From Pseudomonas fluorescens (GTDB lineage: Bacteria > Pseudomonadota > Gammaproteobacteria > Pseudomonadales > Pseudomonadaceae): a stretch of DNA of 64,000 nt. The notes under the pieces were generated by a model. The model saw only the letters and a list, made by a program, of their open reading frames with translations, was not told where the DNA came from and did no database searches. The stretch spans positions 62,001 through 126,000 of the forward strand of contig NZ_JSAK01000013.1 in assembly GCF_000802965.1 (NCBI RefSeq), in the 5' to 3' direction. Numbering within the stretch: the first letter of the stretch is position 1; each line of letters starts with the position of its first letter. This document shows, in pieces, positions 6,753 through 14,577 of the stretch. The translations under genes were made by a program, and so were the position numbers.

Positions 6753-7187
6753 CAAACGGTCCCTTGTCGTAACTATTGCGACAGATTATCTATCCAGGGT
6801 TAAAAATTGCGCAAGTGATGTTTATTTCAGCAATCTTCGCAATCCTCTGCCAGCGCCTCGAGCTTATTCTTATCACCAGAATCACTGCTCGGACAAACAG
6901 TCCAGTGCGACTCGCCCAATCAGGCCAGTCGCGGCCACCACCCCCACCGGGGATGCGCAGGCCCCCGAGCTACACACTGTCCAGAAGACGGCGTGAGGTG
7001 AGCCGACGTCAAAAGCGTCGAGCACGGACGAAGTTCTCAAGGGGAGGCCGACGGGTCTCCCCTTTTCTTTGCCTGGAATTTGACCTCCGGCCTCAATAAA
7101 TAAGTTTCGCGACTGATAACCTGTTGCAGAACCGGCCTGTGCTTTCCAAGTCTTACCTACAGGCCCTAACCCTCAGTGAGGAAAAGC
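6753..7187. other. Intergenic region with terminator and possible small RNA
   Basis: This 435-base gap holds the Lrp promoter side (AT-rich 6770-6880) and, further right, GC-rich sequence with short hairpins that ends in a Rho-independent terminator at 7039-7067 on the plus strand. No protein-coding gene precedes that terminator on this strand, so a short plus-strand RNA starting around 6870-6900 is possible. I see no convincing reading frame. Confidence 0.35.
7039..7070 (+). terminator. Rho-independent terminator
   Basis: The eight-base stem AAGGGGAG (7039-7046) pairs with CTCCCCTT (7057-7064) across a 10-base loop, followed by a TTCTTT tract. It lies upstream of the DUF6515 gene with no plus-strand gene before it. 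Confidence 0.7.
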
Positions 7188-9820: not shown

Positions 9821-9859
9821 GTAACATCGTCGCTGTTACTGTGCGTAAATCGTGTTACT
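9821..9859. promoter_or_regulatory. Candidate operator: GTAACA/TGTTAC palindrome and half-sites
   Basis: GTAACA (9821-9826) and TGTTAC (9834-9839) form a perfect inverted repeat with a 7-base spacer. Further GTAAC-type half-sites lie at about 9801 and 9854. They lie just upstream of a winged-helix gene in a toxin-antitoxin-like pair, where autorepression is usual. Confidence 0.45.
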
Positions 9860-9869
9860 TGGTGCTGAG

Positions 9870-10871
9870 ATGAAAACCAGTCGGCAAGAAATTCAGAATT
9901 ACTTCGAGCAGATTTTCGGGGCGAAGCCCGAGATCAAACGTTGGGCGAAATCCAAGGGTTTGCCTTTCTATCTCCTGGATGAATACACCTTCGACGTCGT
10001 GATGTTGCATGGCTGCCAATGCCTGCTGCTACTTGCTCACGAACCCTTCGAAAATGCAGCGAAGATTCGCAAGCACATCGACGTACTGAAAAAGACGGTC
10101 GATTACCCGATTCTCTATGCGACCGGCGCACTCCAGTCATTTGAGCGTAAACGTCTCATCGAGTCCGCGATTCAGTTTGTTGTTCCTGGCAACCAGCTGT
10201 TCGCGCCACAACTTGGACTCGATCTGCGTGAGTTCTACCGCAGCAGGCAGATAGAAAAAGAAGCCTTGAGTCCGGCCAGCCAGGCCGTGCTGATCGCAAC
10301 CCTCAATCGAGGATGGGAGGAGAATCAAACCTTTCGGGGTACGGACCTCGCTGACGCAGACCTCTACTCAAAAATGACGATATCCAGGGCGATGAAAGAG
10401 CTTTATTCGTTCGGATTGATAGAGCCAGCATCCAGTGGGAAATCATCGCGTTGGCATTTCGTGGCAGACCCAAAAGCGATATGGGAAAAATCCCTTCCTA
10501 TTCTGCAAAGTCCGGTGAAACGGGTTGTGTACGCAGACTGGCATCCATCGGTGCAACGAGCTGCCGGGTTGTCAGCGCTCAGCAGGGCGTCCTTGCTGGG
10601 CGAGCCATCGATACCCGTTATTGCCTTCACCAAAGAAAGTTGGGATTCGGAAGTCGCTCGCTCAGGTCGTGCGGAAATTGACCCCATCGACGACCCTGTT
10701 GTCGAGGTCGAGATCTGGAGCTATTCCCCTGATCACGTGTCAGGTCGAACCCGGATTCCATTGCCGCCAGAAAGCGTTGATCCCCTGTCTCTCTATCTGA
10801 GCCTGAGGGACAACGTCGACGACAGAGTTCAGTTGAGCCTTGATGAAATGATGGAGAAGATTGAATGGTGA
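9870..10871 (+). CDS. Winged-helix regulator/antitoxin-like partner of an AbiEii-type nucleotidyltransferase
   Basis: A 333-residue protein. The N-terminal half (1-135) has no motif I recognise. The middle (about 140-200) looks like a winged helix (LSPASQAVLIATLN, then KMTISRAMKELYSFGLIE and a basic SSGKSSRWHF wing). The acidic C-terminus ends in LDEMMEKIEW. In accessory DNA, genes like this sit directly before AbiEii-family nucleotidyltransferase toxins, which suggests an antitoxin or repressor role. Its stop overlaps the next start by 7 bases, so translation is coupled. ATG 9870 is chosen over the upstream GTG 9852. Less GC-rich codon use than its neighbours and its place inside a duplicated hrpB end point to acquisition by transfer. 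Confidence 0.65.
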   Translation: MKTSRQEIQNYFEQIFGAKPEIKRWAKSKGLPFYLLDEYTFDVVMLHGCQCLLLLAHEPFENAAKIRKHIDVLKKTVDYPILYATGALQSFERKRLIESAIQFVVPGNQLFAPQLGLDLREFYRSRQIEKEALSPASQAVLIATLNRGWEENQTFRGTDLADADLYSKMTISRAMKELYSFGLIEPASSGKSSRWHFVADPKAIWEKSLPILQSPVKRVVYADWHPSVQRAAGLSALSRASLLGEPSIPVIAFTKESWDSEVARSGRAEIDPIDDPVVEVEIWSYSPDHVSGRTRIPLPPESVDPLSLYLSLRDNVDDRVQLSLDEMMEKIEW

Positions 10872-11185
10872 AGGGATTGGATACTTTCCGCGAAGCTTTT
10901 GCCGGTCACGCGGAGCGTTATGTGCTCATCGGTGGTGTTGCAGCCAGCCTGGCCCTTGAAGAGGCGGGCATTGAGTTCCGTTCCACGCGAGACCTGGACA
11001 TTGTGCTTTTGTCTCGTCTTCTGTCGGCTGATTCAGATATCAGTCTTCCGGAGGACATCGCGACTGACTTGCGCAAATTTCTCGCCGTTATGCCCTCTCT
11101 GGACGTCGACATGAAAGCCTTGGGGCTCCGTGGCGTCACTATCGCTGAAGTCGCAGAGCGCATACGTTCAGCATTCAAGGTATAG
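10865..11185 (+). pseudogene. AbiEii-type nucleotidyltransferase toxin, internally deleted
   Basis: The 106-residue product starts like a nucleotidyltransferase of the AbiEii/AbiGii family: YVLIGGVAASLALEEAG, then FRSTRDLDIVL with the GG and D-x-D metal motifs (about 20-45). Full-length relatives run to about 250-280 residues. Here the sequence goes straight from the D-x-D strand to what looks like the family's C-terminal helices (LPEDIATDLRKFL, then ALGLRGVTIAEVAERI). About 150 residues, including the third catalytic acid and substrate-binding part, seem to be missing in frame. It is probably inactive as a transferase, though a short regulatory protein cannot be excluded. The comparison rests on my memory of the family, not an alignment. 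Confidence 0.6.
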
Positions 11186-13755: not shown

Positions 13756-13858
13756 CCTGTAGGAGCTAGCCTGCTCGCGATGGTCGTGAACGATAACGCG
13801 TAAATCCAGATGCTCAGCGGCGTCCTTGAGCCTTTCGCGAGCAGGCTCGCTCCTACAG
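13756..13858. repeat. Inverted REP pair, GTAGGAGCGAGCCTGCTCGCGAT class
   Basis: CCTGTAGGAGCTAGCCTGC at 13756 faces CGAGCAGGCTCGCTCCTACAGG ending at 13858. It directly follows hrpB and may block 3' decay. The same class recurs at 16529, 23451 and 43195, with a single arm at 63660. Confidence 0.8.
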
Positions 13859-13996
13859 GTTTACCGGCGCAGGGCTCGTGTTTAAAGGCGTTTAAGGATA
13901 CTTCCTGCAAGCTACAAGACCTTGCGCCGTTGCCTACGGGTACGCCAGAATCCGCCGGCTTGTGCGCTTTGGAGGCCATCGGTAACTTGATTCGTG

Positions 13997-14217
13997 TCAC
14001 TGCTCATCAGTGACCGGGTTTAGTCGCCCGGCTATCCATTCACGGTTGCATAAGTGTCATCCAGTCAGGTGTTCACCTGTACTTGATGGTGGCTGTGCGC
14101 ATGGCGCCCTCGGGCGCGCCGGGTTTGGGTGGTTTACCGGTCGACTAACTTGCGCACAGCCGCCTCCCTTTCGTTTAGTCGCGAGATGGTCACGGCCTCA
14201 CTTGAGGTTAATTGCCC
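13997..14217 (+). promoter_or_regulatory. Structured 5' leader of the DUF6124 gene with hidden ribosome-binding site
   Basis: Several perfect hairpins follow one another. TCACTG/CAGTGA is at 13997-14013. CCGGG/CCCGG (14014-14031) has the loop TTTAGTCG. CAGGTG/CACCTG is at 14066-14079. A long-range 11-base stem, GGCTGTGCGCA (14091-14101) with TGCGCACAGCC (14151-14161), encloses GCGCCC/GGGCGC. The last hairpin, CCTCA/TGAGG (14196-14207), contains the GAGG that should serve as the ribosome-binding site of the ATG at 14218. The motif TTTAGTCGC occurs twice (14019 and 14174), and a complementary GTCGACTAA lies at about 14140. This density of structure suggests an RNA-based switch on translation. 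Its ligand or partner is unknown. Confidence 0.6.
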
Positions 14218-14577
14218 ATGTTCAAACCTACACCGAACCCGCCAGACACCGATCCGGCATCCCCATACGACCCCGATTCCAAAAAACTCAACGAGGCCGC
14301 CGAACGCGCCCTCAACTTCCACTTCCCCTCGACCGCCGACATCAAAGCTACACCGCGTACCGTCAGCACCCTGTTCACCGTCGACCCAGAAGCCACGACC
14401 GAAACCCTTATGGTGTATCTGGTCGAAACGCTGGCCTCGGTGGATGTGATGGTCCATCAATTGGTCGATCACCTGGACGGTGGTTCACGCAATGCCCTGC
14501 TAGGGATTTCCAACAGCGTGATGCTGGCGGAGATCACGGCCAATCGCGTGCTGGATCAGATTGATCCGCCTGAATAA
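14218..14577 (+). CDS. DUF6124 (DUF3077-like) small protein
   Basis: A 119-residue acidic protein of a family present in several copies in fluorescens-group genomes. The N-terminal 30 residues are Pro/Asp-rich. Then come NEAAERALNFHF and a helical C-terminus (LMVYLVETLASVDVMVHQLVDHLDGGSRNA..). No membrane segment or catalytic motif is visible and the role is unknown. ATG 14218 is chosen because the product then begins MFKPTPNPP as in relatives, and the only ribosome-binding candidate (14204-14207) is 10 bases upstream. The strongly folded leader implies post-transcriptional control. Confidence 0.8.
   Translation: MFKPTPNPPDTDPASPYDPDSKKLNEAAERALNFHFPSTADIKATPRTVSTLFTVDPEATTETLMVYLVETLASVDVMVHQLVDHLDGGSRNALLGISNSVMLAEITANRVLDQIDPPE

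Follow-up and report, generated by a model that had tools for sequence, protein, structure and literature searches.

A C4 antisense-RNA module of the phage P1/P7 type probably controls a chromosomal DUF6124 gene in Pseudomonas fluorescens

We found that the leader of a DUF6124 gene of Pseudomonas fluorescens, studied in a window of 64,000 nucleotides (the whole stretch of DNA that was analysed, to which the coordinates below refer), is very probably a module of C4 antisense RNA, like that of phages P1 and P7, placed on a chromosomal small-protein gene. A family match, the fold, covariation among the a', a1 and a2 elements, the architecture, the spacing and a genus-wide link between C4 and DUF6124 were observed directly and form the basis of this reading.

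The gene codes for 119 amino acids on the forward strand (14218-14577; Pfam PF19619, 81.3 bits with a cut-off of 27). The sequence-only reading had described multiple hairpins upstream of it, including a long stem enclosing a hairpin, and these were present at the claimed places. Read directly on the forward strand, they were GTCACTG/CAGTGAC (13996-14014), CCGGG-TTTAGTCG-CCCGG (14014-14031), which holds a repeat inside its loop, and CAGGT-GTTC-ACCTG (14066-14079), as well as a long stem, GGUGGCUGUGCGC / GCGCACAGCCGCC, with one G-U pair, which lies within 14082-14170 and surrounds two inner hairpins. The same reading had noted that TTTAGTCGC occurs twice, once in a hairpin loop, with its complement nearby, and this was confirmed, the copies being at 14019 and 14174 and the complement CGACTAA at 14142-14148. 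The minimum free energy of the leader (13991-14223) was -94 kcal/mol against -78.6 (sd 4.5) in 200 dinucleotide shuffles, none of which was equally stable (z = -3.46), showing that the leader is more structured than chance. The match to the RF01695 family and the covariation are stronger evidence than the folding energy.

An Rfam scan of the whole window located RF01695, the C4 antisense RNA, at 14082-14170 of the forward strand with 67.7 bits, above the gathering score of 45, and the long stem with its two inner hairpins is P1, P2 and P3 of C4. The P3 loop (GTTTGGGTGGTTTA, 14123-14136) is b', whose predicted partner is b2, and CGACTAA (14142-14148) is a', an exact 7-nt complement of both a1 and a2. 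The first copy of TTTAGTCGC contains a1 (TTAGTCG, 14020-14026) in a hairpin loop, and the second contains a2 (TTAGTCG, 14175-14181), the first half of the antisense target. The second half, b2 (GGTTAATTGCCC, 14206-14217), located from its RNAduplex pairing with b', lies between the ribosome-binding site and the ATG. The hairpin at 13996-14014 and the a1 hairpin fall in a match to RF03163 (c4-a1b1) at 13983-14034, whose 31.6 bits (E 3.7e-6 in 551 bp) missed the gathering score of 46.7, so that the segment is called a1b1-like and not a member of RF03163; just past it, CCATTCA (14036-14042) is a weak b1 candidate chosen by eye. By analogy with the phage RNAs, RNase P-type cleavage would be expected at GGT 14088-14090 of C4. 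Neither the whole-window scan nor a focused scan of the leader (E up to 1) matched a riboswitch or thermosensor family of Rfam 15; the third match of the focused scan was a ribosomal-protein leader at chance level (15.8 vs 33.2 bits).

Covariation among DUF6124 leaders, the check proposed in the sequence-only reading, was positive for the C4 fold as well as for a'-a2 and a1-a'. The homologues were the best 80 of at least 490 DUF6124 relatives in named Pseudomonas genomes, near relatives only, and they were scanned with a covariance model of C4 trained on the 19 copies in the genome to which the window belongs. The model detected C4 in 79 of these 80 loci, 44-54 nt upstream of the ATG, and the sole locus lacking a match (L084) had only 50 bases of upstream DNA. 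In 76 distinct DUF6124-linked rows, 97.8% of the cells of the C4 fold were paired, with two-sided change in 13 of 27 pairs (73 cells); four measures of covariation were reached in 0/500 shuffles and a fifth in 2/500.

Pairing with the target was evaluated in an alignment of the window locus and 39 of the 79 relatives, hand-picked for diversity, where related sequences are not independent events. For a'-a2 and for a1-a' alike, 99.6% of the cells were paired, leaving one unpaired cell, and 46 two-sided and no one-sided changes were seen in these chosen loci. The covariation score was 0.457 against 0.14 in shuffled alignments, and pairing fell to at most 46.1% when the partner was shifted by 1-3 columns, a control that preserves relatedness. 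The measure of further standard pair types was not above shuffles, 315/500 being as high for a'-a2 and 311/500 for a1-a'. In L029, which like the window locus has DUF1028 downstream, a' is CTACTAA instead of CGACTAA, and a1 and a2 differ accordingly; outside the alignment, L055 showed a one-sided change in a2 that retained a G-U pair.

The pairing was also scored in a pooled set of 155 unique C4 loci from the same genome, the named loci and 60 further genomes, after removal of three identical rows out of 158. An exact a' complement of at least 7 nt was present in the locus's own target in 149/155 and in its upstream region in 151/155. With like-for-like scoring, foreign targets with a different heptamer contained an a' complement in 762 of 20,734 cases, which is the comparable control (a less generous scoring gave 63/19,226), and all foreign targets, many with a shared heptamer, in 3,617 of 23,870. 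The 60 further genomes contributed the best-scoring listed C4 from 60 of 92 C4-bearing genomes, a choice biased to good matches, and in these a complement of at least 6 nt was found in a2 in 60/60 and in a1 in 59/60, against 791 (a2) and 837 (a1) of 3,540 foreign pairs. Over the 155 loci, b' paired with its own target region at a mean of -15.3 kcal/mol, compared with -9.3 (sd 2.8) for foreign regions, and the own pairing came within the top 5% of the foreign distribution in 89/155 loci and within its top 20% in 136/155. The split of C4 into a' and b' by position is out of register in some loci (for instance L020, L021, L026 and L027), and start codons were picked by rule for the 60 genus loci and by eye for the 19 loci of the same genome.

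When a' and b' were scored together against these 19 targets, the own target ranked first in 16/19, the exceptions being L014, L015 and L022, and it ranked first for the window locus. The b'-b2 duplex of the window locus, at -10.4 or -11.4 kcal/mol with G-U pairs included, was weak, about 21% of foreign targets equalling it (21st percentile); by b' alone, the own target ranked 11th of 19 and the upstream region (b1) 12th of 19. Across the family, the b'-b1 mean was -12.6 against -10.3 for foreign regions.

The last hairpin of the leader had been read as CCTCA/TGAGG, containing the ribosome-binding site. GAGG (14204-14207) does lie inside it, but the realistic form is CCTC-ACTT-GAGG (14196-14207, forward strand), with 4 bp and a 4-nt loop, because the 5-bp version leaves a 2-nt loop. 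In 84 of 137 loci, an upstream arm could pair with the ribosome-binding site over at least 4 nt, where shuffled arms gave 27.7 (sd 4.6); because the loci are related, the 84 are not independent events. The 137 are the C4-linked loci with a recognisable ribosome-binding site, the 18 of 155 that had no clear one being left out. The hairpin recurs in differing letters (CTCC/GGAG, CCTC/GAGG) and is not universal. We propose that it is a second layer next to the antisense pairing of b', whose duplex overlapped the ribosome-binding site in 131/137 loci (a raw count without a control).

Upstream of the first hairpin, TTGTGC (13960-13965) and TAACTT (13983-13988), with a 17-nt spacer, make up a sigma-70-type promoter on the forward strand, which is putative because a generic consensus scan called no promoter at the window leader. 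The pattern T-A-N3-T was conserved at -37 to -32 from a1 in 149 C4 loci, mostly DUF6124 loci, and TATAGT and TATCGT occupied the same position relative to a1 at other loci of this genome. The putative promoter would start an RNA at about 13995, immediately before the first hairpin.

The genome to which the window belongs had 19 C4 matches above the cut-off, 11 DUF6124 genes and three DUF3077 matches. By coordinates, eight of the 11 DUF6124 genes were directly downstream of a C4, as were two of the three DUF3077 matches, one of them as a second frame; the third DUF3077 match was a DUF6124 gene without C4. The remaining nine C4s were upstream of other small frames, and a start codon, identified by eye, was found 45-56 nt past C4 in 19/19. 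Three of the 11 DUF6124 genes (L001, L005 and L008) had no upstream C4 at E up to 10, implying that the DUF6124 protein can exist without C4. At that limit L001 and L008 were empty, and L005 contained only the C4 of a neighbouring cassette, matched on either strand, and an additional weak match on the opposite strand (11.6 bits). At L005 the C4-less gene (L005:1501-1689, reverse strand) is divergent from this C4-DUF6124 cassette of the same genome, whose C4 is at L005:2213-2301 on the forward strand.

C4 is expanded in the genus Pseudomonas. It was detected in 92 of 99 Pseudomonas genomes, the present one included, and was above the Rfam cut-off in 91, with a median of 13 copies per genome and at least 39 in the richest, where the count reached the scoring cap. 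DUF6124 was found in 78 of the 99, one genome having as many as 43 matches, and the two copy numbers were correlated (rho 0.89 over the 99 genomes); 14 genomes had C4 only, seven had neither and none had DUF6124 only. In a sample of 185 gammaproteobacterial genomes, C4 was present in seven including the present one, that is, in six of 184 others, with at most three copies. Eight C4s taken from those six genomes were all followed by a frame beginning 48-113 nt after C4, and an exact a' complement of at least 7 nt was found in a1 in 8/8 and in a2 in 7/8, L198 being the exception. By eye, the product at L204 is Bro-N antirepressor-like, and that at L198 lies beside a primase-like frame.

Of the 60 Pseudomonas loci, 59 gave a C4-linked product. 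At E up to 0.01, 22 of these 59 products were assigned to DUF6124, nine to DUF3077 and six to Bro-N; one product, at L122, belongs to a Bro-N-type frame that is broken. At L119, L120, L123, L126 and L151, C4 is followed by a frame of 175 amino acids that resembles Bro-N antirepressors. One Bro-N protein tested matched several PHROG families of 'anti-repressor Ant', and one DUF3077 protein tested matched a phage family of unknown function, matches that point back to a phage origin. Many other products were frames of about 52 amino acids whose stop overlapped the start of a second frame by 4 nt; at L112:437-873 and like loci this first frame is conserved, often ends in GG-x-Q and is arranged as if translationally coupled. 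The predicted structure of DUF6124 was a helical hairpin of modest confidence (mean pLDDT 70.8, pTM 0.44), and a PDB search gave no match at E <= 0.001, so no function is claimed for DUF6124. PADLOC and NCBIfam gave no defence or named-family match for the five proteins tested.

A single superfamily for all C4-linked products was also considered and was not established. An initial profile link of 97.5% between DUF6124 and DUF3077 was rejected, since the two alignments had row L137 in common and the first contained further DUF3077-like rows, and the clean comparison after removal of these rows was weak (14%, E 0.002). Two other product groups compared by profile showed no link, the first two of the three comparisons having used a mixed alignment. 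One gene of the same genome (C34) passed the cut-offs of both Pfam families.

The cassette of the window lies between the gene of the HrpB helicase and a DUF1028 gene, beyond which are genes for an M20 peptidase, a LysR regulator and an aldehyde dehydrogenase. In L030, from another species, hrpB and DUF1028 flank the cassette as well, and one of these neighbours is shared by L029 and L038 (DUF1028) and by L041 (hrpB). Seven other genomes were examined at the position preceding DUF1028; the stretches covered contained no C4, and blastn gave no match there to hrpB, the leader or DUF6124. A search for a mobile origin yielded no plasmid match, one match among 50,697 phage records and matches in 27 viral contigs, many of them near contig ends, so that host flanks are possible; C4 was directly upstream in 24 of these contigs and about 550 nt upstream in two, and in one the gene was at the start of the contig. 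Elsewhere in the window, 6807-7062 matched the Rfam family of the Pseudomonas sRNA P24 (253 bits). Between hrpB and the leader, an inverted pair of GTAGGAGC / GCTCCTAC-type sequences was seen by eye at 13759-13860, which we take to resemble a Pseudomonas REP element. At 9852-11185, a frame of 339 amino acids is followed by one of 106, with no Pfam match at E 1e-5; by eye this looks like a candidate AbiE-type pair.

The order a1b1 - C4 - a2b2 - small gene is that of the immI region of P1 and P7 (c4 - icd - ant; RF01695, RF03163), whose C4 likewise has a three-stem fold and antisense elements a' and b', with b' over the region of the ribosome-binding site, a position that is predicted for the window locus. 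Unlike the phage C4, that of the window is chromosomal, between hrpB and DUF1028, and belongs to a family with many copies per genome; the gene presumed to be controlled is DUF6124 and not icd/ant, and since this is no phage antirepressor the window locus is not an immI operon. In a type I toxin-antitoxin pair, the mRNA of a small protein is repressed by its own antisense RNA; in contrast to such pairs, the predicted antisense RNA of the window is on the same strand, upstream and non-overlapping, and DUF6124 is a protein of about 120 amino acids, predicted to be helical.

According to the literature, c4 RNA acts in trans to repress the P1 antirepressor Ant (PMC8546580), Icd and ant lie in immI (PMC8201110), and the C4 of P1/P7 is processed by RNase P to a separate RNA of about 77 nt (PMC5320573). 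The same sources describe c4 from Proteobacteria and phages and c4-a1b1 from Gammaproteobacteria and phages (PMC2864571), with a C4 motif predicted in Pseudomonadales too (PMC5320573), and a review (PMC12197685) forms part of the C4 literature. C4 in this order of elements is thus not new. The chromosome of Acinetobacter baumannii encodes a group of C4-like RNAs, the Group 1 sRNAs (PMC5320573); as in Pseudomonas, they are many and differ in a', and RNA-seq showed that they are expressed and apparently processed. The accessible text of that paper names no cognate downstream gene, whereas here a target region and a small frame follow each C4 examined. No link of C4 to DUF6124 or DUF3077 was found in the open-access literature searched, where a single paper, on furfural tolerance, came up for these two families. 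What appears to be new is which gene family C4 is partnered with, that a1, a' and a2 change together, and how large the expansion is.

From this arrangement we infer where transcription starts, that C4 is processed and acts as a separate RNA, that translation is repressed and what role a1/b1 has. A single transcript from about 13995 would carry a1b1, C4, a2b2 and DUF6124, and its C4 part would be excised, by RNase P in P1/P7, to give a short antisense RNA. Its a' would then pair with a2 and its b' with b2, over the region of the ribosome-binding site and the start codon, blocking the translation of DUF6124, and the local hairpin over the ribosome-binding site may add basal repression. In the precursor, a1/b1 would probably pair with a'/b' and so time or tune the release of C4. 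The suggestion of the sequence-only reading that the leader is a riboswitch, a thermosensor or an sRNA-controlled switch was right in kind as to sRNA control, with the regulator, C4, encoded within the leader itself, but no family of the other two sorts was matched.

The same elements could be read as a switch working in cis, in which a' stays in the transcript and chooses a1 or a2 like an attenuator, the winner setting translation. That a' complements both a1 and a2, which change jointly in the 40 loci, and that all parts lie within about 210 nt of one predicted transcript are consistent with this idea. It is nevertheless unlikely, since the founding members of C4 are described as processed or trans-acting (PMC5320573; PMC8546580) and the a'-a2 pairing in cis would presumably have to form a pseudoknot with P1, a stem of 17 bp. 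A riboswitch for a metabolite, or a thermosensor, working through the CCTC/GAGG hairpin would account for the recurrence of an arm complementary to the ribosome-binding site, yet we consider it scarcely credible, because that hairpin has 4 bp, no such family of Rfam matched and the conservation sits in C4 and its target pairing.

The locus might also be the decayed remnant of a phage, with no present function, as the knowledge of C4 from phages P1 and P7 and the weak b' pairing at the window locus could suggest. This explanation is very improbable, because the window locus has kept a', a1 and a2 intact, these elements covary in its relatives, DUF6124 has an open frame, the Pfam-matched neighbours are ordinary chromosomal genes and the same neighbours occur on both sides in another species (L030) and on one side in L029, L038 and L041.

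If the leader is the C4 antisense module that we favour, DUF6124 genes, for which there has so far been no control mechanism, gain a testable one whose target bases can now be predicted; the predictions are at the level of single bases and can be checked by matched mutations. A phage immunity RNA amplified across a genus is also a natural set in which to follow how antisense specificity diverges and yet remains private. Tentatively, and as a possibility that we regard as well short of probable, Pseudomonas may have made the phage C4 switch into many private, largely insulated antisense controls, normally silent and released under a specific condition. If so, some genomes would have at least 39 such switches, over DUF6124, DUF3077 and other small proteins, and release when a phage enters, under stress or when the locus is lost would make them a system resembling toxin-antitoxin pairs or responding to phages.
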